DNA of 64,000 bases from Maribacter sp. HTCC2170. Lineage in GTDB: Bacteria; Bacteroidota; Bacteroidia; Flavobacteriales; Flavobacteriaceae. Made by a program: the position numbers and the translations under genes. The notes below the pieces were generated by a model. The model saw only the letters and a program-made list of their open reading frames with translations. It had not been told where the DNA came from and ran no database searches. The stretch is from the NCBI RefSeq assembly GCF_000153165.2, contig NC_014472.1:2848001-2912000 (forward strand). Direction: 5' to 3'. This document shows, piece after piece, positions 8,596 through 28,010 of the stretch. The stretch's first letter is position 1. Each line of letters opens with the position of its first letter.

Positions 8596-9648
8596 CTAAA
8601 ATCTTACTTGTAACTGTGCCAGTAACATGTCATTATCAATATTGATATGTGTTTCAATATGTGCTTGATAGTTTACTTGCAACCTTATTTTATCATTTAA
8701 AAAGTAATTGAATCCAAATGTCATCATTTCTTGATACCCAATTTCCTTAATATCAATATTAGGATCAAAATACTCATACTTTAAAACAGGTTGTAGCTTC
8801 CATTCGGTATCATAAGATGCCATAATATAGGCACCGTCGCGCTTTTCACCAAGTTCTACGGGTGTAGCCCCACAACCACCGCCAGCAGCTCGGTTATAAT
8901 CACCCTCATCATAAATATATTCACCTTGAACCTTTAAATTATTGAATTTCAAAGCCATTTCACCACCAAATGTAGTTCGTGAATCACCATTTGTGTTTGG
9001 GTAACCATATCTAAAACTACCACCCAGTGTTAAAAAATCAGTTAATTTATAGGTAGCTCTACCAACAACATCTTTATTTGTATTGTTATCGACAACACCT
9101 AAACCTCTTCCATTCATTATGGCTAATGCATAATTGAGTTTGGTGTATTTATTACCACCGAACAATCCGATACCAAAATCTCTTTGAGGTGCGACCAATT
9201 GGTCCGCTACTATAGATCTATCAATAGTAGTAAGACTATGGCAAGCTGTTGCCACCTCTAAGCTAAACGGCTGTTTAAATGAACCTAATGAGATTTTTGC
9301 CCAGTTATACTTGTCATAAGTAATGAATGCATCCATGATGTAAGCATCACCTGAACTACCAATAAATGGGCTGGTTTCTAGCATAAAATAGTAGGAGAAA
9401 TCCTCATAGGCTCTTCCTCTAACACCTATTCTAGCTCTCTTGAACTTAAAGGTACTTTCACCCGGGTTGGAAAAAGTATAGTCATATTGGGACTGTAAGT
9501 ACCCAAATAAGACCGGTTTGTTCGCATTTAGTGAATCGCTTCCAGAACCTGGGAGATCACCTTCGCATCCTTGTGAAAATGCATTGTTATTAAAGCATAT
9601 TAATGCAATCACAAGTATATAAAACATTTTATTTGTCATAACATTCAA
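8596..9648 (-). CDS. OprO/OprP-like porin
   Basis: 350 residues with a Sec signal peptide (cleavage near FSQG). The mature protein shows the Porin_O_P pattern: GYLQSQYDYTF, FKFKRARIGVRGRAYEDFSYYFMLE, DAFITYDKYNWAKISLGSFKQPFSLE and a C-terminal strand LLAQLQVRF ending in Phe. It would form an outer-membrane channel for anions; related porins take phosphate or polyphosphate. It is the last gene of the operon with two exported rhodanese proteins, so here it more likely passes an inorganic sulfur anion such as thiosulfate or sulfite. That substrate is inferred from context only. Confidence 0.85.
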   Translation of the reverse strand: MNVMTNKMFYILVIALICFNNNAFSQGCEGDLPGSGSDSLNANKPVLFGYLQSQYDYTFSNPGESTFKFKRARIGVRGRAYEDFSYYFMLETSPFIGSSGDAYIMDAFITYDKYNWAKISLGSFKQPFSLEVATACHSLTTIDRSIVADQLVAPQRDFGIGLFGGNKYTKLNYALAIMNGRGLGVVDNNTNKDVVGRATYKLTDFLTLGGSFRYGYPNTNGDSRTTFGGEMALKFNNLKVQGEYIYDEGDYNRAAGGGCGATPVELGEKRDGAYIMASYDTEWKLQPVLKYEYFDPNIDIKEIGYQEMMTFGFNYFLNDKIRLQVNYQAHIETHINIDNDMLLAQLQVRF

Positions 9649-9660
9649 TTTTAAACCTGA

Positions 9661-10659
9661 TTAATTGACAAGAGGTAAACTTTTAGGGTTACTATCTGCG
9701 CCCCACTGGTTTTTTGTAAAAGCCTGATTTGAGTTGAACATACCGTTCATACCAAATGTTAAGCTATAGGCATCATACCCCAAAACTCTTAAACAGGCTG
9801 TCATTACAGCAGAAGTCTGGCCCGTGTAGCAGTATGTCACAACCTGTGCGTTTGGGTCTGGATCAAGATTTGAATGACCACCATCTGCAAACGTAAGTGG
9901 TAATATTCTATAAGCCCCATCTATGTGGCCAAAGCCAGTGTAGTCAGCTTCACTAAAATAATTATTGATGAAATAATTACTTGGAGAACTCAATACTTCC
10001 CCTCCAGAAACTGTTTTAAAACCAGCGGCAACCACTTGTTCAACACGTTCCATTAGAATTTGTGCTCCATCGGTGGAAAAACTTGAAATCACCGGGTCAG
10101 CAAATACCTCTGGAGTTGGTGCATTTCCAAAAGTCCAATTAGAATGTCCATCGGCGTCATTACCAATATTATTGTTCCAAGGACCAGAAGTTGTTCCATT
10201 CCAACCACTCATTCCCCATTTAAGGGCCCTCGTATGTGAATAGCCATATAAGCGCATTAAACCTGTAGCATAACACGCTGTTTGTCCTGTATAACATACA
10301 ACCAATACAGGTTTTGAAGTTGAAGCAGCCTCCGTTAAAATGTCAGTAAAAGGTACATTCTTGGCGCCTTGAATATGATTGGTAAGGAAGTCAGTATTCT
10401 TTCTTATATCAATAATGTGGTATTTTGAAAGAAATGCATCTAAATCAGCATCCGCTGGTGCTGCAACCACAAATTTTTCACCATCAGGGTTGGTAAGAAT
10501 ATTATCAATATCCAGGTCATTGGATACAATGTGGTCTTTCAATAGAGTAAAGGCGGCAACTGAATTTTCATCTGTAATGTCATCACCTCTATCGCAAGAG
10601 ACAAGTAATAATGCGGGCACCATTAACAGTGCAACTAAGTACAATGATATTTTTTTCAT
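9661..10659 (-). CDS. Double rhodanese lipoprotein, both active sites intact
   Basis: 332 residues with a lipobox (LLVSC, Cys22), so it is anchored in a membrane facing the periplasm or surface. Two rhodanese domains follow. The first has HIIDIR (81-86) and the active loop CYTGQT with Cys122; the second has CYTGQT with Cys277. Rhodaneses carry sulfane sulfur as a cysteine persulfide, for example from thiosulfate to a thiol acceptor. It lies between a second exported double rhodanese and a porin on one transcript, downstream of the shared operator at 11785-11802. Tandem rhodanese domains with both cysteines kept are less usual than the active/inactive pair. Confidence 0.9.
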   Translation of the reverse strand: MKKISLYLVALLMVPALLLVSCDRGDDITDENSVAAFTLLKDHIVSNDLDIDNILTNPDGEKFVVAAPADADLDAFLSKYHIIDIRKNTDFLTNHIQGAKNVPFTDILTEAASTSKPVLVVCYTGQTACYATGLMRLYGYSHTRALKWGMSGWNGTTSGPWNNNIGNDADGHSNWTFGNAPTPEVFADPVISSFSTDGAQILMERVEQVVAAGFKTVSGGEVLSSPSNYFINNYFSEADYTGFGHIDGAYRILPLTFADGGHSNLDPDPNAQVVTYCYTGQTSAVMTACLRVLGYDAYSLTFGMNGMFNSNQAFTKNQWGADSNPKSLPLVN

Positions 10660-10687: not shown

Positions 10688-11665
10688 TTATTCGATTACT
10701 GGGAACATGTTTATTTCCTTTTTAGTAAATGCATCTCCACCTGTTTTCTTAAGCAGTGTATTCATAAAGCCATTTTCGCCATAGGCAAGGTTACCAGCAT
10801 CATATCCTAAAACATTGAGATAGGCTACAACATAAGCTGCTTTTTGCCCTGTTTCTTCATAAACCACAACCTTTTCATCTATTGGAAGTGTAATAAGATC
10901 TTTTGTTATTGAAGCGTTAGGGTGATAGTGCAAGGATCCAGGAATATGTCCATCACATTTTGCCTCATCCCAATAATTGATAATGTAGAAATTGCTAGGG
11001 TCAGCAAATAGGTCTTCGGATTTAATGATATATTCTTTATAAGGAACGGCAAATAACTCTTCTAGGCGAACATTTAGAATTTCTTTGGCATCAGTCTTAC
11101 CCGTATTTAGGGTAGGGTGCTCACCTTTTTCCTCTTTGACCTTTTCATCTACCTCTAAATTGGTTGCAAAATCATTGCTTGTATTTTTTAACCAAGTACC
11201 CTCGGCGAAGTCCTCTCTCCACGAGCTCATTCCCCATTTCATGCTATAAGCATTATCATAACCTGCCAATCGTAAAAGACTTGTAAAATAGGCTGCAGAT
11301 TGACCGGAATAACATACCAATACAATTTGTTCAAATTCCTCAGGGTTGATTTTCGTTTTGAAATAGTCCAATAAATCTGAGGAAGCTACATTAGCTGCAT
11401 TTTTTATATGGCCATATTCAAACCAACTATCAGTTCGTATATCTATAATATGTTGCTTGGGGTTCTTAAGATTCTTCCTAACCTCATCAGCCATAATTAT
11501 CGGAAATCCATCTCCTTGTAAATAACTGGCATTGGTCTCTAAATATTCTAAAAGAATCTCAAATTCCCCAGGAGGATTATTGTCACGATTGGCATTCTTA
11601 AAACTACTTGAGATTGCTGCCGAAAAAAATAACAGCGCCACAATGAGTATTGACTTTTTTTTCAT
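10688..11665 (-). CDS. Exported double rhodanese, second domain lacks cysteine
   Basis: 325 residues with an N-terminal Sec signal (hydrophobic residues 5-20) and no lipobox. Domain one has HIIDIR (72-77) and the active loop CYSGQS with Cys118. In domain two the equivalent loop reads EETGQK, so the cysteine position is Glu270 and the domain is probably a non-catalytic partner. It is the first gene of the transcript that continues into the lipoprotein rhodanese and the porin, and it starts 120 bases downstream of the operator. It is probably periplasmic, alongside the molybdoenzyme encoded further upstream. Confidence 0.9.
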   Translation of the reverse strand: MKKKSILIVALLFFSAAISSSFKNANRDNNPPGEFEILLEYLETNASYLQGDGFPIIMADEVRKNLKNPKQHIIDIRTDSWFEYGHIKNAANVASSDLLDYFKTKINPEEFEQIVLVCYSGQSAAYFTSLLRLAGYDNAYSMKWGMSSWREDFAEGTWLKNTSNDFATNLEVDEKVKEEKGEHPTLNTGKTDAKEILNVRLEELFAVPYKEYIIKSEDLFADPSNFYIINYWDEAKCDGHIPGSLHYHPNASITKDLITLPIDEKVVVYEETGQKAAYVVAYLNVLGYDAGNLAYGENGFMNTLLKKTGGDAFTKKEINMFPVIE

Positions 11666-11954: not shown

Positions 11955-12602
11955 TTAAGCTACTATTATTATGTTTCTACCAAGCTTAACTCTGCCTTTT
12001 CGCTCAAGTTTTTTTAGTATTCTTGAAACACACACTCTTGATGTGTTTAAATCATGGGCAATTTTTTGATGGGTAATGTTCAAAAATTTATCCTGCGCCA
12101 ATTTCGCTTCATATTTGAGATATTTCAAAATTCTCTTATCAAGTTTTTTGAATGCAAGATTTTCTATTACTTCCACCATTTCCAGAAGTCTTTCATTATA
12201 GCGATCGATCATAAAAACACGCCATGATCCATATTTAATCAACCAATCTTCAATTTTGTCTACGGGGACTAAAATGCAGTCCAGATCCCTTTCAACGGTT
12301 CCCCGAAAAATGCTCCGCTTTTTATGGATACAATTTGCAAATGAAATGGCACACGTACTTTGGTGTTCCAAAAAATACAGGAGAATCTCATCACCATTAT
12401 CATCTTCTCTAACAATTTTGATGACACCATCGATAACAAGAGGAATATGGGTAATTTCATCTCCTATGTCAATAAAACGAATACCTTCCTCCATTTTTTT
12501 TTGGATTCCGATTTCTGCAATTTCATTGATTAGTGCTTCTTCAAAAATAGAACCATAGTGTTCATTCAATTTCTCCCTCAGTATTATTTTATCATTTTCC
12601 AT
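11955..12602 (-). CDS. Crp/Fnr family regulator of the sulfur island
   Basis: 215 residues: N-terminal cyclic-nucleotide-binding-type beta-roll (about 1-115), dimer helix (about 125-150) and a C-terminal Crp helix-turn-helix whose recognition helix lies in TSRVCVSRILKKLE. No FNR-type four-cysteine N-terminus is present. Cys84 and Cys91 in TCAISFANC are shared with the paralogue at 27360-28010 and may sense sulfane sulfur or redox state; that is inference. It sits 24 bases after the PEGGC-tailed rhodanese gene and is the last gene of the molybdoenzyme operon, so it is probably autoregulated through the operator at 18876-18891. Confidence 0.9.
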   Translation of the reverse strand: MENDKIILREKLNEHYGSIFEEALINEIAEIGIQKKMEEGIRFIDIGDEITHIPLVIDGVIKIVREDDNGDEILLYFLEHQSTCAISFANCIHKKRSIFRGTVERDLDCILVPVDKIEDWLIKYGSWRVFMIDRYNERLLEMVEVIENLAFKKLDKRILKYLKYEAKLAQDKFLNITHQKIAHDLNTSRVCVSRILKKLERKGRVKLGRNIIIVA

Positions 12603-12626: not shown

Positions 12627-13238
12627 TCAGCAACCGCCCTCTGGTTTCTTTTTCTTCTTTTTCTTTATTGGCACCACCTTTTTAGGAGTTCTTTTTACTA
12701 CTTTTTTTACTATGGGTGTTTTTTTTGGAGCTTCTTTTTTAAAAATATCCACGTAATTGGCTATGGGCTTTTCAAACTCATAGTTTTGGACCTTTAGCTC
12801 ATTATCAACCAAGGCTGTTTGCGCACCTAACAATTTTGCATTATCAAAACCAAGTTCATACAGGATCATCCAAGCACTATTGGCATCAATTGGATCTTTG
12901 CCATAGATAATTACTGGAATGTTGTTTTCTCTGAATTTTTTGAATAATTCAATGTTCTTTGCATCTAAAATTTCTGCAGTGGGTATATTGATTGCGTCGC
13001 TTATATGACTTTTATCAAAATCAAATCTGCTTCTTACATCAATAAGCACGTTATCAGTATTTTTTAATTCTGGAATAGCAACTAAGTAATCCTTTGTCTT
13101 TAAAATTTCAAGCGTTTCCAATTGAGTTTTTCCATAGACATTTGTAGGTTTTCTAAAGGTTAGAAAACCAATGACAATGATTAGAATGAACAATACTGTC
13201 GAAATTGATATTCTTTTAGTTTTTTCGAGTTCTTTCAT
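12627..13238 (-). CDS. Membrane-anchored rhodanese-fold protein with C-terminal PEGGC arm (1)
   Basis: 203 residues. A basic N-terminus precedes one membrane segment (12-29), placing the rest in the periplasm. The rhodanese fold shows LIDVRSRFDFDKSHI (65-79), but the active loop reads IIYGKDPID, so the catalytic cysteine is missing. Residues 167-198 are a Lys/Pro/Val arm (KKTP, VKRTPKK, a run of seven Lys) ending PEGGC. Cys203 is the only cysteine in the protein. The arrangement recalls SoxY, whose terminal GGCGG arm carries sulfur intermediates. A neighbouring paralogue has the same tail. I infer a periplasmic sulfur carrier rather than a sulfurtransferase. Confidence 0.85.
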   Translation of the reverse strand: MKELEKTKRISISTVLFILIIVIGFLTFRKPTNVYGKTQLETLEILKTKDYLVAIPELKNTDNVLIDVRSRFDFDKSHISDAINIPTAEILDAKNIELFKKFRENNIPVIIYGKDPIDANSAWMILYELGFDNAKLLGAQTALVDNELKVQNYEFEKPIANYVDIFKKEAPKKTPIVKKVVKRTPKKVVPIKKKKKKKPEGGC

Positions 13239-13248
13239 TTTATACTAT

Positions 13249-13914
13249 TTAGCAACCGCCCTCAGGCTTTCTTTTTTTCTTTTTCTTAATAGGCACTACC
13301 TTTTTCACCACTTTCTTTTTGGGTTTTGGTTTTATTACTTTTTGCTCAGGACGTTTTATTCCAACTCCAAAATACTGCGCTGCTGCGATTCGAAAGTCTC
13401 TAAGAACAAAAGCTTCATTTGACATATCTTCGGTAGGTTTTGAAGGGTTTAGTATGGTATTATACCATTCGTTAATTCCACCTTTCAGTACATGAAGGTT
13501 TTTATAGCCCGATCTCGTAAGTAACAACCATGCTTGATCTGAGGTGAAATTTTCGTTGGAAAAAAGAACTATTTCATACTGATCTTGATCAAAGTACCCC
13601 TCATAATCCTCGTTCAATATATTTTCAAAAGGAATATTAATTGAATTTGACAATGTGTATTTACTATATTCTTTTTCTTGCCTTAAATCTACCAAAACAA
13701 TTGATGGGTCTTTGTTAATGATTTTGTCAGCAAGTACATCTGAGGTGATGTAGCGTTCAGGATTTATTACTTGGGCCAACAGATCTTCGGCAGTAATGGT
13801 TTCATTTTTTTCATAGGTAGGTAGAAATAATAATCCCAAGGCCAGAATGAACATAACTGAAGCCAGGATAATATATCTTTTTGATAATATTTTTGCAAGA
13901 TTTCTATTGATCAT
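13249..13914 (-). CDS. Membrane-anchored rhodanese-fold protein with C-terminal PEGGC arm (2)
   Basis: 221 residues; one membrane segment near 14-32 after a basic N-terminus, then a rhodanese fold (IVLVDLRQEKEYSKY, residues 72-86). The catalytic loop is VLFSNENFTSDQ, again without cysteine. The C-terminal ~35 residues form a Lys/Pro-rich arm ending RKPEGGC; Cys221 is the only cysteine. The fold is diverged from its neighbour at 12627, while the last 15 residues are nearly identical, so selection seems to act on the arm. The gene is 10 bases after the YeeE/YedE gene and 10 bases before its paralogue, inside the molybdoenzyme operon. Confidence 0.85.
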   Translation of the reverse strand: MINRNLAKILSKRYIILASVMFILALGLLFLPTYEKNETITAEDLLAQVINPERYITSDVLADKIINKDPSIVLVDLRQEKEYSKYTLSNSINIPFENILNEDYEGYFDQDQYEIVLFSNENFTSDQAWLLLTRSGYKNLHVLKGGINEWYNTILNPSKPTEDMSNEAFVLRDFRIAAAQYFGVGIKRPEQKVIKPKPKKKVVKKVVPIKKKKKRKPEGGC

Positions 13915-13923
13915 AATGTAGTT

Positions 13924-14514
13924 TTAATAGAATATTTTACTAACTCGTTTCCTAATTATATCAGCGATAAAGAATGCTACTAGGGCCATAATGGTAACTG
14001 CAAATATTATCCAACTTGCGGGAAGCTCGAGACTTTCGGCAAGTGTAATATTACCTAGGTAAGAATCATTGTAGAGACTTTCAAAACCTCCGAATGCTTC
14101 GGAAAAAATCAATACACCTACCATTATGCCAAGCACATAAACCCAAGCATCCAACTTACCAATGGCAACAGCACATAGACTTGTGCCCGGACAAAAACCT
14201 CCCGTTATGAAACCTAACCCCATTATTGCTCCACCAACTATTGCGCCCCATATATACGTCGGGTGTACATATAACATTGACATATCTACCCACCCTAAAT
14301 AATCCATATAATATAAACCGATTACGGAGACTATAGCCGCCGTAAAAAACACTTTTAGGACTGCAAAGTCATAGCCATAAAATACACCAGCAAGTTTCCT
14401 AGAAGACGAAAAACCGGATGATTCAAGAATAAACCCGAACACCAAACCAATCAACAAAGCGATAACAATGTTCCATTCGTAGGAAAGATATTCATTAGGT
14501 ATCAATGGTCCCAT
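13924..14514 (-). CDS. YeeE/YedE family sulfur transporter, half-size (2)
   Basis: 196 residues with about five hydrophobic segments. The family signature GLGFITGGFCPGTSLCAVAIGK (residues 98-119) contains the two cysteines typical of this branch. YeeE/YedE proteins move sulfur compounds; the studied member TsuA takes up thiosulfate using conserved cysteines. Full-length members are twice this size, so this protein probably pairs with the adjacent half-size copy at 14534-15064. Position between the NrfD-type subunit and the PEGGC rhodaneses suggests that sulfur handled in the periplasm is moved into the cell. Confidence 0.85.
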   Translation of the reverse strand: MGPLIPNEYLSYEWNIVIALLIGLVFGFILESSGFSSSRKLAGVFYGYDFAVLKVFFTAAIVSVIGLYYMDYLGWVDMSMLYVHPTYIWGAIVGGAIMGLGFITGGFCPGTSLCAVAIGKLDAWVYVLGIMVGVLIFSEAFGGFESLYNDSYLGNITLAESLELPASWIIFAVTIMALVAFFIADIIRKRVSKIFY

Positions 14515-14533: not shown

Positions 14534-15064
14534 TTAAATCCAATTTTTTCTAAAGAAATATGCAAACAGGTAGGCAGTGCCAAAAATTGCTAACATGGTA
14601 ATGAACCCACCAGTTGATAAAACTGCCATTCCACTCAGTGCCGCGCCGCTGGTACAGCCTCTGGCAATTTGGGCTCCCAATCCGAACAAAACACCTCCAA
14701 TTAAAGCAAAGACCAATCTACGTCTTGATGTAATTTTGGGCGAATGTTGAATCCTAAAACCAATTCTACCCGCCAAGGATCCCGATAAAAAAGCCCCGGC
14801 CAATATTCCAATAGTTTCAAAAACAAGCCAATTGTTCATTGGTGACTTACCCTCTTCAATAAACCTGCTGAAATAGGCATTGTTCTTGGCATGTTCGTGT
14901 GATACTTGATCAACAATGGTGACAACGCTGCTTTTCATTACCCCACTGGCACCCAATCCTCTTCCAGTCATATAAAATGTGAATATGATTAAGAGACCGA
15001 GTAAGAACCCCCCGAAATATGGGTTCCAATATACATGCCTGTTATCTTCAATGACTTTTTTCAT
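14534..15064 (-). CDS. YeeE/YedE family sulfur transporter, half-size (1)
   Basis: 176 residues with about four hydrophobic segments, beginning WNPYFGGFLLGLLIIFTFYMTGRGLGASG, the usual N-terminal YedE motif. The signature GLGAQIARGCTSGAALSGMAVLS contains the conserved GCTSG cysteine. It follows the NrfD-like gene by 10 bases and is 19 bases upstream of the second half-transporter. The two proteins together give the length and motif set of a complete YeeE/YedE transporter, so a heterodimer is likely. The transported species is probably thiosulfate or a related anion, by family and context. Confidence 0.85.
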   Translation of the reverse strand: MKKVIEDNRHVYWNPYFGGFLLGLLIIFTFYMTGRGLGASGVMKSSVVTIVDQVSHEHAKNNAYFSRFIEEGKSPMNNWLVFETIGILAGAFLSGSLAGRIGFRIQHSPKITSRRRLVFALIGGVLFGLGAQIARGCTSGAALSGMAVLSTGGFITMLAIFGTAYLFAYFFRKNWI

Positions 15065-15074
15065 AAATTCTTCT

Positions 15075-16016
15075 TTAGTATAAATACCGTGTTATTTGGC
15101 CTGCTTCTACCATTACAAATCTGAATACCAGTCCTCCTACTAGAATAAGTATGGCAGGAACTGCAACTGGTACTTTATATCCTTTCAATTCTATTATTTC
15201 CAATACTGCTGGAAAAATCAAGCCGAGAATTACAACAAACACAAAAAACATAATGGTGAACTCCCCGTTGGTCAATAATTGCATGGCTTCCAACTGTACT
15301 TCTGATCCTGCCCAATAACCCATAATCATATGTACAATCAATGCCAACTCAATTATTATAAGTCCTAAGTCTATTTTGCTGAAAAGCTTTCTTTCATAAT
15401 GCGATTTTGAGAACAGTATAATGGTCGCAGCTGCAGTTGATAGTCCTGATACAAGGAACAAAGGGCCTAAGATGGCATTGTTCCATAAAGGTCTTGCATT
15501 AAATGCCGATAAAAGTATTCCGGTATAGATGCCAAGGATCAAAGACAACGGAATCAATGCATATGCAATGTTCATTCGATGTTTGACCACGAAAGAGTGG
15601 AACTTCTTAAGGAAACCAAATTTTAGGTTCCATTTGGGAAAAATATCAGAATAAAAGCTGAAAACCCAAATTATGGATAATGGTGTAATAATAAGAAGCA
15701 CCCAAGCTCCCCAAGACATGGGGGATTCTATTCTGATGGTGGTATATAACCTCCAGAAGTAAATTTTATTTGTAAGGTCATAAAACAATGCTATTAATCC
15801 CAGAACCAATGCAATAGGAGCAACAATCGTTGCATATTTAACCGTCGCAGGTGTTTCTCCTTCTTTTTTTAGGATTGTAAACAAGGCTGCAAAAAACAAC
15901 AAACCTGCTGCCAATCCACCTAAAAATAGGTATACTGATATGGGCCAATGCCAAATTTGTAGGGATGGATCTATATTTGGAATATTTCTACCGCTGATAA
16001 ATAATTCTTCTTCCAT
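15075..16016 (-). CDS. NrfD/PsrC-like quinone-reactive membrane subunit
   Basis: 313 residues with about eight or nine membrane segments. The N-terminal LQIWHWPISVYLFLGGLAAG is a signature of the NrfD/PsrC family, which exchanges electrons between the quinone pool and a periplasmic iron-sulfur/molybdenum module. It starts 4 bases after the ferredoxin-subunit stop, in the order catalytic, Fe-S, membrane subunit seen in Psr, Phs and related enzymes. No haem is expected in this subunit. It ties the molybdoenzyme to the respiratory chain. Confidence 0.88.
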   Translation of the reverse strand: MEEELFISGRNIPNIDPSLQIWHWPISVYLFLGGLAAGLLFFAALFTILKKEGETPATVKYATIVAPIALVLGLIALFYDLTNKIYFWRLYTTIRIESPMSWGAWVLLIITPLSIIWVFSFYSDIFPKWNLKFGFLKKFHSFVVKHRMNIAYALIPLSLILGIYTGILLSAFNARPLWNNAILGPLFLVSGLSTAAATIILFSKSHYERKLFSKIDLGLIIIELALIVHMIMGYWAGSEVQLEAMQLLTNGEFTIMFFVFVVILGLIFPAVLEIIELKGYKVPVAVPAILILVGGLVFRFVMVEAGQITRYLY

Positions 16017-16020
16017 ACGA

Positions 16021-16554
16021 TTAGGTTAAATAATACACATGAGGTTTGGTTCCTGCTTCTGGCGCCAACGTTTTATGTTTTCTTCTTTTCAATAATTGTG
16101 AAACTTCGCTGTTGGGATTATCCAAGTCACCAAAATACATACACTTGGTTGGGCAGACTTCAACACAAGCCGGCAACTGCCCTTTTTCTAAACGATGATG
16201 ACAAAAAGTACATTTATCAACATACCCATCAGGATGTTGGTATCTAGCATCATATGGGCAAGACTCAATACAGGCGCCACATCCGATACATTCGTCCGCA
16301 GTTACTAAAACTATCCCTCCGTCTACGATATGGCTAGCACCTGTTGGACAGCAACGTACACAAGGTGCATTTTCACAATGGTTGCACCGTTCAGATTTAA
16401 GCTCCAATTCTATATTGGGATAAACACCCTCAACACGCTCAGTAATCCAATCCCGGCAATAACCAATTGGCACTTTATTTTCTGTTTGACAAGCAACCAC
16501 ACAGTCGCTACAACCTACACATTTCTTTGTGTCTATGACCATTGCATATCTCAT
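16021..16554 (-). CDS. 4Fe-4S ferredoxin-type electron-transfer subunit (PsrB/DmsB-like)
   Basis: 177 residues with four cysteine clusters in order: CVGCSDCVVAC, CNHCENAPCVRCC, CIGCGACIESC and CTFC with CVEVC, the four-cluster layout of DmsB/PsrB/NrfC subunits. It has no signal peptide, so it would be co-exported with the Tat-dependent catalytic subunit. Its ATG overlaps the stop of the catalytic gene (ATGA), so the two are translationally coupled. It passes electrons between the molybdenum cofactor protein and the NrfD-type subunit. Confidence 0.92.
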   Translation of the reverse strand: MRYAMVIDTKKCVGCSDCVVACQTENKVPIGYCRDWITERVEGVYPNIELELKSERCNHCENAPCVRCCPTGASHIVDGGIVLVTADECIGCGACIESCPYDARYQHPDGYVDKCTFCHHRLEKGQLPACVEVCPTKCMYFGDLDNPNSEVSQLLKRRKHKTLAPEAGTKPHVYYLT

Positions 16555-18791
16555 ACTAAAGCTGTTTTAGCGGGTTCTTCTGTCAGTATTTTTACGAAAT
16601 TTCCGCGCATGCCAGTACCTCCCATTAGAGGATCAATGGCCACTTTGGTGACCAATTCAGTATCACTTATCCCTTTACCATGGGCGTTGGTCAATTTTTT
16701 ATTATCATGGCCAAAACCATGTACCATGTATACCGAATCCCAGCGAATACGTTCGGTGACACGAACACGTATTGCGAATGTGGATTGAATTCCATCTTGA
16801 TTTTCAAGCCAAACATATTGGCCTTTTTTAAGATTTAAGATTCGCGCTACTTTAGGATTGACCCAAAGATCGTTTTCACTTTTAAGATCATTTAGATTTG
16901 GATTATTGGCAGTTCTACTGAATGTATGCATCGGTGATCTGCCATAGTTAAGGCGGTAGTAACCATTCTGTGGTTCGGGATGAGGTATATACTTAGGAAT
17001 AGGATCAAAGCCCATTGCCGCTAACTGGGGTGAATAAAATTCGATTTTACCGCTATCTGTACCAAATTCATAGTCTTGACCTTGGGTCAGGTATAATGGT
17101 CCGGATTTACGCTTATAGTTTTTTACTCCTATTTTTTCCATTTCTTCCAATGAAGTACCCATTTGTTCTAATTGCCATGCAATTACCTCTTTGTAGTCAT
17201 CGTACTTAAAATGATTATGTAAACCGAGTCTATCACCAATTTGTTTTGCCATCCACCAAGCGGGTTTAGAATCGAACCTTGGTTTAGCGACTGGCATTCG
17301 TAAGGCAATAGATGGATTTCGATTAGGGGAGGACCTAAGAGCATCATAACGTTCTAAATATGTACATTCCGGTAAGACCACATCTGCATATCCTGTAACC
17401 TCCATGGGCATTGTATCAACAACAACCATGAAATCAAGTGCATCTATAGCTTCCTCCAATAATTTTTTATTTGGAATGGATTTGTTCAAGTTGGTACCGG
17501 CAACAAACCAAGCCTTGATAGGATATTTGTTGTCTTTTGATGGGATGGTGTTTCTGATTACCTCATTGGTAATTCCCATTTCTGCGAATGGATAATTTTC
17601 ACCAATTTCTTCCCAACCCCATTTTGGCTTCGGATAAGGAGGATGTGGAAATTTGGGGATATCTATTTTTTCTTTAAAGTAAAATCCACCTCTACGACCC
17701 CAAGAACCTAATAGACCATTTAGAATGGCCATAGCCCTCGCACGTTGGGTATCATCACCGTACCATGTAACGTGACGTCCGGGATGAATTATAGTCGCAG
17801 GGGCCGCCGCTGCCATTATTCTGGCGGTTTTTCTTATTTCCTCTGGTTTGATTGTGGTTATGCCATACGCCCATTCTGGAGTATAGTCCTGAACATGTTC
17901 CCGTAATTGTTTAAAGCCACTCGCATACTTGGCAACATAATCCTTATCATATAACTCTTCAGTGATCAATACATGCATCCATGCCAATAACAAGGCAATA
18001 TCAGTAGACGGTTTTATGGCCAACCAATGTTGGGATTTACTGGCCGCAGTAGATAATCTTGGGTCAACTGCAATTATAGTGGCCCCATTGTCAATAGCAT
18101 CTGACATTTCTTGGACTTGGGAATTGTGCATATTTTCACCAATATGGGAACCTATTAAAACCAAACATTTTGTATCTCTAATATCAGTTGGTTCGGGAGA
18201 TCCTACCCATGACCCAAAAGTTAATCCAAATCCGGTTTCTCTAGGCCCTCTGCATTGCGCGTATGCTGGTTCTGCAATAGTATCTGAACCAAAGGCCTTA
18301 AAAAGATGCTCAAAATGTTTACCAGGTGAACCATGTTTGAGCAAAGCCAAACTTTCGGCACCGTGTGCATTTTTTAGGCTTGCCATTTTAGTGGAAATCA
18401 AGGTTAAGGCTTCTTCCCAACTAGTTTCTACAAATGTGGTTTCGCCATTAATAATTTTTCTGATTAATGGCGTTTTAAGTCTATCATTGTCCGAGTACAT
18501 ACCTACACCGCCAGTTCCCCTTGGGCATAATCGACCATAGCAATGTGAATCTACCTCATTACCAATTATTTTTTGAATATTGCCTTGTTGATCCGTATGT
18601 GCCCATGCAGCACATTTCCAAAAACAGACTTCACAATAGGTTGGTATTTGTTTTAAAGGTGCCAGCGAATTATCAGTGATTAGATCATCTAAATAGGTAT
18701 TGATGCCCATACTACCCAAAGATGAAGCTGCAGCTACACCACTAAAACCTAATGCGGAAATCTTAATGAATTTCCTTCTTGAAGTACTCAT
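16551..18791 (-). CDS. Tat-exported molybdopterin oxidoreductase, Psr/Phs-like
   Basis: 746 residues from the ATG at 18791; the frame extends to 18836, but this start gives a proper Tat signal (TSRRKFIKISALGFSG). A [4Fe-4S] site follows: CEVCFWKC and CYGRLCPRG. Cys in AYAQCRGPRE is the probable Mo ligand, which places it with polysulfide, thiosulfate, tetrathionate or arsenate-type enzymes. C-terminal molydop-binding domain from about residue 620. The Tat signal excludes the cytoplasmic sulfite enzyme SoeA layout. The operon context (YedE, rhodaneses, PEGGC proteins) points to inorganic sulfur; direction and exact substrate are unknown. No dedicated TorD-like chaperone gene is seen. Confidence 0.88.
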   Translation of the reverse strand: MSTSRRKFIKISALGFSGVAAASSLGSMGINTYLDDLITDNSLAPLKQIPTYCEVCFWKCAAWAHTDQQGNIQKIIGNEVDSHCYGRLCPRGTGGVGMYSDNDRLKTPLIRKIINGETTFVETSWEEALTLISTKMASLKNAHGAESLALLKHGSPGKHFEHLFKAFGSDTIAEPAYAQCRGPRETGFGLTFGSWVGSPEPTDIRDTKCLVLIGSHIGENMHNSQVQEMSDAIDNGATIIAVDPRLSTAASKSQHWLAIKPSTDIALLLAWMHVLITEELYDKDYVAKYASGFKQLREHVQDYTPEWAYGITTIKPEEIRKTARIMAAAAPATIIHPGRHVTWYGDDTQRARAMAILNGLLGSWGRRGGFYFKEKIDIPKFPHPPYPKPKWGWEEIGENYPFAEMGITNEVIRNTIPSKDNKYPIKAWFVAGTNLNKSIPNKKLLEEAIDALDFMVVVDTMPMEVTGYADVVLPECTYLERYDALRSSPNRNPSIALRMPVAKPRFDSKPAWWMAKQIGDRLGLHNHFKYDDYKEVIAWQLEQMGTSLEEMEKIGVKNYKRKSGPLYLTQGQDYEFGTDSGKIEFYSPQLAAMGFDPIPKYIPHPEPQNGYYRLNYGRSPMHTFSRTANNPNLNDLKSENDLWVNPKVARILNLKKGQYVWLENQDGIQSTFAIRVRVTERIRWDSVYMVHGFGHDNKKLTNAHGKGISDTELVTKVAIDPLMGGTGMRGNFVKILTEEPAKTALV

Positions 18792-18875
18792 ATAATATGA
18801 ATCAAAATTAACAGCCAAATTACAAGTGACTTGCATTATAAAACATGATAAACGTCATAAAATCAGTAATTTAAG

Positions 18876-18952: not shown

Positions 18953-20857
18953 ATGAAAAAAAATAATGCTGATTCATTAAAAAAATTCTTAATTCCAATC
19001 CTGCTTGTTCTTGTACTTGGGATTATGGTGGCAATCAAGTACTTTGATTTTGGAAGCAAGTCATATATTGAGCCATTACAATACACCGAAATTGCACTAG
19101 AATCAAAAAGTTGTCTAGAGTGTCATAAAATGTCGAAAGGCTTTTCGGCATCCCATAGCCCCCATCTTATTGGCTGTGTTGGGTGTCATTTAGGCCAGGG
19201 GCTGGAAGCGACAAAGGAAAAAGCGCATGAAGGAATGGTCCTTATCCCGGGAAACTTATCAAATGCTACTGAGACATGTGGTAAATGCCATTCTGAGGAG
19301 TTAAAAAATATCGAGGGTTCACTGATGACCACTAATAGTGGTATTGTCGCAGTTGATAAGTTTATATTCGGAGAAGCTGACTCTCTCGATTACCATTATC
19401 ATATAAAAGACATTGGGAACACAGCTTCAGAGAAACATCTTCGAGATCTTTGTGCAAACTGTCATTTAGGAGCCGAAAAAAAAGAGTTCGGTGAAATAAC
19501 TGAACTCAGTAGAGGAGGAGGATGCATCGCCTGTCACTTGAATTACTCCGATGATGCCAACAAAGAATTAAATGCCTATATAAGTTCTAACAAGACAGCA
19601 CTTCCCAAAATTCATCCGTCAACGGATATTTTTATGAATGACACCCATTGTTTTGGTTGCCATAGCAGGTCTAGTCGCATTTCTACAAATTATGAGGGGT
19701 GGCATGAAACGATGTTTGATAAAGAGGAAGTTGTTGGTGACAAGGACTATAAGGTTTTTGATGATTTGAGGGTTTATAAAAGAATGTCGGAGGATGTACA
19801 TCACCAAAAAGGAATGTTGTGCATTGATTGTCATACTAGTCAAGAGGTTATGGGAGACGGTCAGCTATACGCTCACGAAGAAGATGCCGTTAAACTACAA
19901 TGTTCGGATTGTCATTTTATTAAAGGAAGTCCAGAATCTATTGCTTATGATAAACTTGATAGGGAATCCAAAGTAGTGTTTAGGCATAGAGGTTTTGTTC
20001 ATAAGGATAAGGAAATATTGGTTACTAAAAAAGACAAGAACCCCTTGGTGAATACCTATGTTGAAGGTGACAAAGCTTTTCTTGTTGGCAAAAAAAATGG
20101 TGAACTACATGAAATAAAACCCCAATCAATAGTGTGTTCCAGAGATAATGCACATAAAGACATGAGTTGTTCTAGTTGCCATTCTGCATGGGCTCCACGT
20201 TGTATAGGTTGTCATACAAGTTTTGATAAAGATGATATTGAAGGGTTTGACCTATTGGATAAAAAAGAAGTTATAGGACAATGGAACGAATATGTCTCTG
20301 ATTTTCTGGTTTCTTATCCTACTTTAGGAATCAGAGAAAAAGAATCCGGGAATTCGCGAAAGGTTGAACCTGCCATACCAGGTATGATTATGACATTGGA
20401 CAATGGTAGCTATGAAAAAGGTGGCGAAAGTGAGGATATCTCTTTTCATAGATTGTATGCCCCTAATGCTCCACATACGACCGCAAGGGAAGTTCGTGAC
20501 TGCAAATCATGCCATACCAATCCAATTGCATTAGGTTATGGCTCGGGAGAATTAAAGTATTCAATAACAAATGGAATAGGAAATTGGCAGTTTATACCAG
20601 ATTATGCACAGAATAAACACGATGGACTGCCAGAGGACGCTTGGATTGGATTCATGAATGATAAAAACCAAAGTGGCACCAATTCTACCCGGCATGATTT
20701 CAGACCTTTTACTATAAAAGAACAACAAAGAATACTATTGGTGGGCGCTTGTTTACAGTGCCATAATGAGAATTCAGGGGTAATGGTGAAGAGTACAGCT
20801 AAGTTTAATTTGCAGCTGAAGAATTTAAGTGAACAATGTATACTTCCAAAATATTAG
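18953..20857 (+). CDS. Dodecaheme cytochrome c, membrane-anchored
   Basis: 634 residues. An N-terminal membrane segment (about 12-28) anchors a periplasmic domain with twelve CxxCH haem sites: CLECH, CVGCH, CGKCH, CANCH, CIACH, CFGCH, CIDCH, CSDCH, CSSCH, CIGCH, CKSCH and CLQCH. Other His residues supply distal ligands. It is transcribed divergently from the molybdoenzyme operon and shares its operator, so it is probably the electron partner of that complex or itself a sulfur-compound enzyme like the octaheme tetrathionate reductases. The fold beyond the haem pattern is not one I can name. Confidence 0.85.
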   Translation: MKKNNADSLKKFLIPILLVLVLGIMVAIKYFDFGSKSYIEPLQYTEIALESKSCLECHKMSKGFSASHSPHLIGCVGCHLGQGLEATKEKAHEGMVLIPGNLSNATETCGKCHSEELKNIEGSLMTTNSGIVAVDKFIFGEADSLDYHYHIKDIGNTASEKHLRDLCANCHLGAEKKEFGEITELSRGGGCIACHLNYSDDANKELNAYISSNKTALPKIHPSTDIFMNDTHCFGCHSRSSRISTNYEGWHETMFDKEEVVGDKDYKVFDDLRVYKRMSEDVHHQKGMLCIDCHTSQEVMGDGQLYAHEEDAVKLQCSDCHFIKGSPESIAYDKLDRESKVVFRHRGFVHKDKEILVTKKDKNPLVNTYVEGDKAFLVGKKNGELHEIKPQSIVCSRDNAHKDMSCSSCHSAWAPRCIGCHTSFDKDDIEGFDLLDKKEVIGQWNEYVSDFLVSYPTLGIREKESGNSRKVEPAIPGMIMTLDNGSYEKGGESEDISFHRLYAPNAPHTTAREVRDCKSCHTNPIALGYGSGELKYSITNGIGNWQFIPDYAQNKHDGLPEDAWIGFMNDKNQSGTNSTRHDFRPFTIKEQQRILLVGACLQCHNENSGVMVKSTAKFNLQLKNLSEQCILPKY

Positions 20858-24129: not shown

Positions 24130-25227
24130 ATGGGAAAATTCAAAAAATTATCAGTATTGTTCCGAGTAATGGTAGTGGCATTCACGATTTTTATGGTTTC
24201 GGGTAGTTGTGAAAAGACAACAGAAGAACCAAAACAAACAGCCCAAAGCACAGAGGTCAATAAACCAGAAACGATTATTTGGCATATAAAGGCAATCCAT
24301 CCAGACGGACAGTTATTGAATGTTAAGGCGATTGATAAAGATGGAAAAATACATGATGTAAAGTCATTTCAACACACTGGACAAACCAGTTTCATGGATA
24401 TTAAAGCGATTGTTGATGACAAGCAACTACCTGTAAAAGTATTGGTCAGCGGTGATAAATACACCCGTGTCAAGGCATTGGCAGAAGATGGCAGTGTCCT
24501 CGATATAAAAGCCTTTAACGAAAAAGGTGAAATTCTTGATGTTAAAGGTATCAGTAGAACCAATAATATCATTCATATAAAAGCAATTAATAAAGCAGGG
24601 GATTTTTATGGTATAAAGGCCATATCCCCAGAAGGTCTGCTCAATGATGTAAAAGGTGTTAAAATGACTGATGAACAAACCGAAGTTCTCATAAATGGTC
24701 ATGCAGTTTATGCCCATATCAAAGCATTGCCTCAAGCTGGTGCTGCTAGCAATAATGGACGCTGGCATATAAAAGCATTTCATCCGGAGGGAAGGTTGTT
24801 GGATATTAAAGCCTTTGATACCGATGGTAAAATTTATGATGTTAAGGCCATACAGGATTCCTACCAAAGAAGTATGATGGACATTAAGGCCATTGTGGAC
24901 GACAATAAATATTTGCCAATTAAAATGATTGTTAGTACAGACAAAAACATTCCAATAAAAGCTATTACCGGCGATGGTAGGCTTTTAGATATCAAAGCAT
25001 TAACCTCTGATGGTAGAAAATTGGATGTTAAGGGAATTATGCGTGAAGGTAACCTGATTCATGTCAAAGCAATTAATAAGGATGGTGATTTTTACGGAAT
25101 AAAGGCAATATCACCAGATGGTGAACTCAATAATGTAAAAGGAGTTAAGATAAACAAAGTTAATCTCGAAACTGAAATAAACGGTCAGAAAGTATTTGCT
25201 CATATCAAGGCTTTACCGCAGGCATAG
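24130..25227 (+). CDS. Lipoprotein built of IKAI/VKAI strand repeats (1)
   Basis: 365 residues: lipobox (SGSC, Cys27), a short Thr/Glu linker, then two similar halves (about 51-200 and 211-365), each starting WHIKA and ending AHIKALPQA. Each half contains twelve strands of the form hh-(I/V)-K-(A/G)-(I/F/L), spaced about 11-15 residues with DG turns, such as LLNVKAIDKDGKI and DFYGIKAISPEG. The regular Lys sits one residue after a branched hydrophobe, so one face would be lined with lysines. I do not recognise a named family. A paralogue of identical plan is at 60138-61289. It should be surface or periplasmic. Monocistronic with its own promoter and terminator. Confidence 0.85.
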   Translation: MGKFKKLSVLFRVMVVAFTIFMVSGSCEKTTEEPKQTAQSTEVNKPETIIWHIKAIHPDGQLLNVKAIDKDGKIHDVKSFQHTGQTSFMDIKAIVDDKQLPVKVLVSGDKYTRVKALAEDGSVLDIKAFNEKGEILDVKGISRTNNIIHIKAINKAGDFYGIKAISPEGLLNDVKGVKMTDEQTEVLINGHAVYAHIKALPQAGAASNNGRWHIKAFHPEGRLLDIKAFDTDGKIYDVKAIQDSYQRSMMDIKAIVDDNKYLPIKMIVSTDKNIPIKAITGDGRLLDIKALTSDGRKLDVKGIMREGNLIHVKAINKDGDFYGIKAISPDGELNNVKGVKINKVNLETEINGQKVFAHIKALPQA

Positions 25228-27359: not shown

Positions 27360-28010
27360 CTATTTTTCCAATACTTCTATTTTGTGTCTTTTCATTAGAA
27401 TTTCACCTTCTTGTTCTAATTCTTTCAATAATCTTGTAACTACAACCCTAGAGGTATTCAAATCATTCGCAATTTCTTGATGTGTAACATCTACGGAGGT
27501 TAGGTTTGTGGTATGTAGCTTACCAATAAGGTAGTTAAGAACTCTATCCTTCATTTTTAGAAAAGCCAAATTATCTATTGACCCAACCATTTCCAATAGC
27601 CTAAAATGATAACTATCAATAATATAATAACGCCATGAATCATATTTAATTAACCATTCATCAATTTTATTCACTGGCAAAAGAAATATTTCAACATCTT
27701 CCTCAACAACACCTTTAAAAATGCTTTTTTTATTGTTGATGCAGTTCGCAAAAGAAATGGCACAGGTATCACCTTTTTTTAGATAGTACAGTGAAAGCTC
27801 CTTCTTTTTTTCTTTACGTATTATTTTAACTACGCCAGATAATAATAGTGGAATATGGGTCATTTCATCACCAATATCTATTAGCAACTCTCCTTTTTTC
27901 AGCTGGGTATATTCACTTACCACCAAAATCTCATTGATAAATTTTGCTTCAAAAATAGTTTTATAAGCTGCTTTCAATTTTTTTTTATGGATAGGGTTTT
28001 GTGTTTTCAT
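27360..28010 (-). CDS. Crp/Fnr family regulator, paralogue of the sulfur-island regulator
   Basis: 216 residues with the same plan as the regulator at 11955-12602: beta-roll sensor domain, dimer helix and Crp helix-turn-helix. Shared blocks include IDIGDEMTHIPLL, TCAISFANC (Cys83 and Cys90), LPVNKIDEWLIKY and NDLNTSRVVVTRLLKELE. The recognition helix differs at only a few positions, so the two may compete for the same operator. No adjacent sulfur genes are present, and no TGTAAC-N4-GTTACA site is seen near its start. The target genes may be distant. Confidence 0.9.
   Translation of the reverse strand: MKTQNPIHKKKLKAAYKTIFEAKFINEILVVSEYTQLKKGELLIDIGDEMTHIPLLLSGVVKIIRKEKKKELSLYYLKKGDTCAISFANCINNKKSIFKGVVEEDVEIFLLPVNKIDEWLIKYDSWRYYIIDSYHFRLLEMVGSIDNLAFLKMKDRVLNYLIGKLHTTNLTSVDVTHQEIANDLNTSRVVVTRLLKELEQEGEILMKRHKIEVLEK

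Follow-up and report, generated by a model that had tools for sequence, protein, structure and literature searches.

Two adjacent genes of Maribacter sp. HTCC2170, located in the 64,000-nucleotide stretch of DNA analyzed here (the window), encode rhodanese-fold proteins, PA and PB, that have lost the catalytic cysteine, bear a conserved cysteine at the end of a C-terminal arm of common sequence and, within their family, are constantly accompanied by MoA, a molybdopterin enzyme resembling PsrA. It is fairly likely, in our judgment, that PA and PB act in the periplasm as sulfur carriers tethered to the membrane, and that their arm cysteine is loaded with sulfane sulfur and swung into the PsrA-like molybdenum enzyme. 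The rhodanese domain would be a retired catalyst, kept as a body and docking surface, with the working thiol moved to the tip of a flexible, basic and proline-rich C-terminal arm. We infer the presence of sulfur on this cysteine, its source and its handover to MoA: sulfane sulfur would be taken up, as a persulfide or thiosulfonate, from the double rhodaneses RHD1 and RHD2 or from free polysulfide or thiosulfate, and the arm would swing it into MoA. The NrfC and NrfD subunits would exchange the electrons of MoA with the quinone pool, and the YeeE halves, where present, would take or give the same sulfur.

Gene order, fold and predicted location

The source genome was searched as one contig of 3.87 Mb. 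The best named relatives of PB were encoded at six Maribacter loci (67-72% identity). The ORF listing and Pfam scan gave the minus-strand order MoA, NrfC, NrfD, YeeE1, YeeE2, PB, PA (Table 1). Past PA, the same strand encodes a Crp-type regulator, then RHD2 and RHD1, and finally a porin. The operon MoA-NrfC-NrfD-YeeE1-YeeE2-PB-PA was found repeatedly across Flavobacteriaceae. One of its ORFs, which has cysteine clusters, is presumed to encode the NrfC/PsrB-like subunit.

Three further features of the window were recorded. The 12-haem ExtM-like cytochrome and the ExtI-like porin, both with matches below the curated cut-offs, look like an Ext-like module joined to the Psr operon. A second Crp-type regulator (27360-28010, minus strand) appeared similar, by eye, to the one beside PA, and an ORF at 24130-25227 (plus strand) has a lipoprotein-like start and, by eye, repeats of the IKAI...DVKG type.

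Table 1. Features of the window around PA and PB (positions in the window)
Feature	Position	Strand	Description	Basis
POR	8596-9648	-	Porin O/P, ExtI-like	PF07396; NF040900 50.3 bits (cut-off 150)
RHD1	9661-10659	-	Two rhodanese domains, loop Cys in both; lipobox-like start	ORF, Pfam
RHD2	10688-11665	-	Two rhodanese domains, the first with a loop Cys (VCYSGQS)	ORF, Pfam
Regulator	11955-12602	-	Crp/Fnr type	Pfam scan
PA	12627-13238	-	203 aa; hydrophobic helix at the N terminus, rhodanese fold lacking the catalytic Cys, arm at the C terminus	ORF, Pfam, AlphaFold model
PA arm	12630-12734	-	C-terminal 35 residues with net charge +13; last Cys encoded at 12630-12632	ORF, charge count
PB	13249-13914	-	221 aa; hydrophobic helix at the N terminus (predicted N-in), rhodanese fold, Ser at catalytic Cys position, arm at the C terminus	ORF, Pfam, AlphaFold, Foldseek
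PB arm	13252-13356	-	C-terminal 35 residues with net charge +15; last Cys encoded at 13252-13254	ORF, charge count
YeeE2	13924-14514	-	Half-size Sulf_transp protein, conserved Cys in GGFCPGTS	PF04143; Cys in 77/78 loci
YeeE1	14534-15064	-	Half-size Sulf_transp protein, conserved Cys in RGCTSG	PF04143; Cys in 75/77 loci
NrfD	15075-16016	-	NrfD/PsrC-like membrane subunit	PF03916
NrfC	16021-16554	-	NrfC/PsrB-like iron-sulfur subunit (presumed name)	Cysteine clusters read from ORF
MoA	16551-18836	-	PsrA/PhsA-like molybdopterin enzyme, Tat-type start SRRKFIK (by eye)	PF00384/PF01568
Cytochrome c	18953-20857	+	ExtM-like, 12 CxxCH; divergent from MoA	NF040943 257.5 bits (cut-off 800)

The rhodanese domain PF00581 was the sole Pfam match at E <= 0.001 for both proteins (PA 9.4e-13, PB 4.6e-15), and no SoxY domain (PF13501) was found in either in that scan, at the same threshold. 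AlphaFold models of PA and PB have the rhodanese fold, the best Foldseek match for the PB model being 3gk5 (E 2.7e-7, target TM 0.83). The arm was poorly modelled, with a pLDDT of 44-68 for the PB block and low to middling confidence for PA. The loop cysteine of active rhodaneses is absent from both proteins: in HMMER alignments, the serine of FSN in PB and the glycine of YG in PA face the cysteine of the CGSGFR loop of 6mxv. Serine S119 of PB was invariant in the 24 rows of alignment A1, which omits L018 (a near copy of L017) and the weak matches L031-L035 and in which L028 and L029 were entered minus their last glycine. The sequence-only reading, made before any database search, had described two adjacent rhodanese-fold proteins without the catalytic cysteine, with the loops IIYGKDP (PA) and VLFSNEN (PB), and both the fold and the loops were confirmed. 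It had also contrasted diverged domains with near-identical tails, and the comparison bore this out: once the last 35 residues are removed, the two proteins share 26% identity over 134 aa, whereas their tails agree at 14 of the last 15 residues and 18 of the last 24.

The survey of relatives took in 80 loci, retrieved by patterns in the rhodanese domain and representing the best 80 among 338. In 78 of the 80 loci, PB has more positive charge before its N-terminal helix than after it, so its rhodanese domain should lie outside the cytoplasm. For PA, the flanking charge gives no clear answer and tends to point in the opposite direction (N side lower in 44 of 80, greater in 19 and equal in 17). 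Lipobox-like starts were recognized by eye in PA and a third carrier of loci L133 and L134, and in both armed proteins of the distant locus L136. PA and PB are predicted to be extracytoplasmic. The basic arm and its final cysteine might also be imagined as a second membrane anchor, electrostatic or through a thiol-linked lipid, on the model of the polybasic tails of Ras or Rab and in keeping with net charges of +13 (PA) and +15 (PB). This explanation is extremely improbable: an N-terminal helix or lipobox-like start is already present, the basic charge is not strict, dropping to a minimum net value of 1 in PB and 0 in PA in relatives that keep the GGC, and we know of no enzyme for such a lipid modification in the bacterial envelope.

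Conservation of the terminal cysteine and of the arm

PB ends in GGC at all 80 loci (77 EGGC, 2 AGGC and 1 GGGC), and PA in 74 of 78 closed ORFs, two further PA (L042 and L050) being cut by contig ends; alignment A2 contains only PA ending in GC, and the invariance there is a result of this choice. Additional genomes from the same family and class had the ends EGGC, EEGC, AGGC, GGGC, SGGC, DEGC, GGCS and GGCG, with one or two residues after the cysteine in some distant relatives (GGCG, GGCS, GGCGG). The initial claim that the only cysteine of each protein is its last residue, at the end of PEGGC, is correct for PA and PB of the window but does not extend to the group, as only 22 of 80 PB and 57 of 78 closed PA have a single cysteine. 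The terminal cysteine is nevertheless the only cysteine column occupied in all 80 PB. A 15-base pattern for the EGGC end gave three matches in the genome, two of them PA and PB and the third at the end of no listed ORF; its backward control gave four, and the motif count therefore proves nothing alone. Judged from the sequences, the terminal arm is real beyond chance, the proof being its conservation across loci. Selenocysteine at a TGA following the GGC of PA was considered and rejected, the stops of the 74 PA being TAA (43), TAG (26) and TGA (5); those of the 80 PB are TAA (72), TAG (5) and TGA (3).

Homologues in the same synteny without the terminal cysteine, which had been named beforehand as speaking against a carrier role, occur for PA, and for 0 of the 80 PB. 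PA is armless in L064, L086 and L090, which form one related group, and in L131, where the arm is missing from its ORF; PB is armed in L064, L086 and L131. No GGC remnant was found in the 260 bases translated for L064, L086 and L090. The sets of loci overlap in part: L138 and L090, both on contigs of 27683 bases with the same genes, count as one case. In L102, the fourth closed PA without a GGC end, the reading frame is broken and the arm can still be read in a different frame; the PA of L137 has arm remnants in other frames. Because PA is armless in L064, L086, L090 and L131, one arm may suffice. A diverged second PB-like protein lies beside the YeeE halves in L139/L127 (G658:C1369, 564-1232, minus strand); it ends in VRKGC and has no basic Gly-Gly arm.

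These data also bear on the idea of a disulfide between terminal cysteines, either linking PA to PB or within a homodimer, with a structural or redox-switch role and no sulfur transfer. In its favor, PA and PB of the window are neighbors with near-identical arms and one cysteine each, but PB is armed where PA is armless (L064, L086 and L131), an arrangement still compatible with a PB homodimer. Three armed proteins are present in L133 and L134, and active-type rhodaneses and a Psr-like enzyme are encoded nearby. We consider such a disulfide role quite improbable.

The carrier reading is favored by the behavior of the arm as a module. At 50 of 74 loci, PA and PB have the same last eight residues. 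In the block of four residues that precedes the final four, PA and PB have an identity of 0.87 within a genome, versus 0.42 between genomes. In a permutation test on the last 12 residues, in which relatedness was uncorrected, the observed value was 0.913, against a mean of 0.721 and a maximum of 0.758 for 5000 shuffles. PB and PA of L133 agree at every one of their last 24 residues, and 13 of these are encoded by different codons in the two genes; identity between the domains is 29% over 94 aa. Identical residues from different codons imply that selection acts on the protein. A third protein of L133, a double rhodanese with a loop cysteine, has the same last 15 residues, and L134 likewise encodes three proteins with common last 15 residues, the third being a double rhodanese with a loop cysteine. 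Each of these two genomes thus has three different rhodanese-fold proteins with one arm, ending in GGCG. In L090, where PA is armless, the neighboring double rhodanese ends in EGGC; no third armed rhodanese was seen on the locus DNA examined for L086. It seems that something reads the arm, and reads all the arms of one genome.

Copying between genes was weighed as a source of the matching arms. Where PA and PB of one genome have the same residue in the last 12 positions, the codon differs in 256 of 811 cases (0.45 between genomes), and these codon differences, together with those of L133, disfavor recent gene conversion as the only cause. In L134 the codon differences are small (2, 3 and 1 of 15), and copying may have a part in the identity of its arms. 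Older copying followed by selection is possible at all loci.

Genomic partners of the armed proteins

Among 299 genomes of the family, PB (E <= 1.2e-32) and MoA (E <= 1e-150) were found in the same 25, the two sets being compared by eye. The co-occurrence with a Psr-like molybdenum enzyme expected from the sequence was thus upheld, MoA being present in 25 of the 25 family genomes having PB. At the level of loci, MoA was present in all 65 that have more than 5.5 kb upstream of PB (of 80). The solved structure nearest to MoA was 2vpw (620.9 bits; 168.4 for the next), an entry named thiosulfate reductase that we take to be Thermus PsrA. The score of MoA against the PhsA model NF012032 was 463 bits, below the cut-off of 694, and MoA was therefore not named PhsA. 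The layout of PsrABC and PhsABC, with a Tat-type molybdenum subunit and NrfC- and NrfD-type subunits in one operon, was found.

A role of the arm as a binding site for metals or metalloids (copper, selenite or tellurite), in an operon for Ext-type metalloid reduction, is very improbable. A single cysteine is a poor metal site. Such a system would account for the ExtM-like 12-haem cytochrome and ExtI-like porin in the cluster, and loss of ExtI in Geobacter alters selenite and tellurite conversion (PMC5877670). The Ext matches are, however, far below the curated cut-offs (257 of 800 and 50 of 150 bits), and MoA is most like PsrA/PhsA.

Co-occurrence with YeeE, also put forward initially, proved regular but not obligatory. 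Both YeeE halves were present in all 71 loci having more than 1.5 kb upstream of PB (of 80), and within the 80 loci they are as constant beside PB as MoA. Each half has a conserved cysteine, and YeeE2 has a second one in 68 of 78 loci. It is conceivable that sulfur is relayed from the cysteine of SoxY along the cysteines of YeeE-type transporters (PMC11582611). The arms might serve YeeE1 and YeeE2, the terminal cysteine extending a transmembrane cysteine chain and passing sulfur to or from the transporter, with the molybdenum enzyme acting in a separate step; the GGCGG-armed proteins of genome G572, which adjoin TusA and YeeE, would fit such a role. We consider this explanation unlikely. A search of genome G181 (99% complete, 20 contigs), which has MoA as well as the two arms, gave no PF04143 protein, whereas the other seven genomes searched have one. 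YeeE is consequently not required, and MoA is the steadier partner within the family, a ranking that comes from this one genome. TusA, the usual cytoplasmic partner of YeeE, was matched in only one of 18 armed genomes (G572) and in none of the 17 with a Psr operon, the control being matched in 11 of 14. As a separate point, the YeeE of these 17 Psr-operon genomes (absent from G181) would have to act without its usual partner.

In G572 (a draft of 620 contigs), which encodes GGCGG-armed rhodaneses, TusA and a full-length YeeE, no MoA was found at E <= 1e-20, and MoA is therefore not the sole possible partner of the arms. The locus of this genome, L136, includes two lipoprotein-like rhodaneses ending in GGCGG, one with a loop cysteine and one without, and a double rhodanese that matches MST and ExtH weakly. 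TusA, the full-length YeeE, the two GGCGG rhodaneses, an RHD1-like protein, a porin and the double rhodanese lie in one run (G572:C386, 4192-9703). This run, in which no Psr complex was found, is possibly a second type of armed-rhodanese system. A search with the armed protein of L136 gave no match at E <= 1e-15 in 345 genomes of the phylum, a set that included no known matching genome, and in four genomes of its family the only match was the query itself.

Outside Flavobacteriaceae, the armed group appears small, since the class search yielded 7 of 395 genomes at E <= 1e-10, including the source genome and G605. The latter was rejected as an armed relative, its protein being an ordinary rhodanese with a loop cysteine (YCSS) and no arm. 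As a check for spread on plasmids, a tblastn search with PB returned 13 plasmid records, with a best E of 1e-7 and less than 80% of the query covered in every case.

Comparison with known carriers and sulfur systems

To our knowledge, the Sox system is the only one with periplasmic carriers that have a swinging cysteine arm. If the carrier reading is true, PA and PB would be a second kind of swinging-arm carrier, on another fold and tied to a Psr-type molybdoenzyme, and would illustrate the relocation of a catalytic cysteine from an active site to a mobile arm. They would also define a sulfur pathway for presumed heterotrophic marine Flavobacteriaceae in which no TusA was found, with a rhodanese fold lacking the loop cysteine and ending in GGC as its sequence marker. 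No description of armed rhodaneses was found among the titles and abstract openings of the literature matches examined, and they seem to be undescribed in the literature.

Several known systems share genes with this cluster. In the YeeE/YedE family (TsuA, SoxT and PmpAB), PmpA and PmpB are half-size YeeE-type proteins with a conserved cysteine (PMC11582611); YeeE1 and YeeE2 resemble them in being half-size and having at least one conserved cysteine each, but are here combined with armed rhodaneses and a Psr complex, with no TusA match in 17 of 17 genomes. The Geobacter ext cluster encodes the rhodanese ExtH, the porin ExtI and the 12-haem cytochrome ExtM (PMC5877670), and likewise has a rhodanese, a porin and a 12-haem cytochrome in one cluster; it differs in that the matches here fall below the cut-offs and that the accessible part of that paper names no Psr complex or armed rhodanese. 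Sulfur disproportionators have YTD, with a YedE-type protein, and MOLY, a molybdenum oxidoreductase cluster, with possible sulfur carriers, a similar combination; YTD, however, works with TusA and DsrE, reports of the complete cluster are confined to Desulfobacterota and Nitrospirota, and no armed rhodanese is described in the accessible parts of these sources (PMC12998232, PMC9751629). With regard to the direction of the reaction, a Psr-type enzyme might run backwards (PMC2628731). Lutibacter profundi has genes for SQR and polysulfide reductase, and its growth was not stimulated by thiosulfate (PMC5219744).

The two closest precedents are Sud and SoxY. Sud has a rhodanese fold, with its cysteine located in the rhodanese loop; the structure 1qxn, listed as a sulfide dehydrogenase and presumably Sud, matched RHD2 weakly (E 0.081). 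In Wolinella succinogenes, periplasmic Sud presents polysulfide to PsrABC for reduction (PMC2628731), and, according to a title cited in PMC2754497, its single cysteine is required. Sud is thus periplasmic, with one working cysteine, and serves a Psr-type molybdenum enzyme; PA and PB share the rhodanese fold and the Psr-operon association, their location being predicted. They differ from Sud in having a loop without cysteine and a cysteine at the tip of a C-terminal arm, in being membrane-tethered and in being encoded inside the Psr operon.

SoxY ends in GGCGG. The sulfur that it carries is attached to a swinging arm bearing a GGC motif (PMC11237559). PA and PB resemble it in their C-terminal Gly-Gly-Cys arm, and the distant armed rhodaneses of L136 end in GGCGG, a likeness of motif and not homology. 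They differ in their fold (PF00581, not PF13501), long basic arm and molybdenum partner of the DMSO reductase family. SoxY was found in none of 30 armed genomes, in a search whose positive control also gave no match. SoxCD acts on SoxYZ-bound sulfur, and we tentatively propose a separately arisen parallel, in which a modular cysteine arm on two or three rhodanese-fold proteins lets all of them visit one active site, the Psr-like enzyme using protein-bound sulfur instead of free polysulfide.

The sequence-only reading had cast the arm as a sulfur carrier of the SoxY kind. The carrier role gained from the selection on the cysteine arm, its presence on several putative carriers, the predicted extracytoplasmic location and the GGCGG end of a distant relative, whereas SoxY lost its place as the single model, Sud and PsrABC being an equally close precedent. 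On their sequences, PA and PB belong to neither the Sud nor the SoxY family, given that they lack both the loop cysteine found in Sud and the SoxY domain, and they fit no known carrier family. They are best read as candidate carriers combining a Sud-like fold and partner with a SoxY-like arm.
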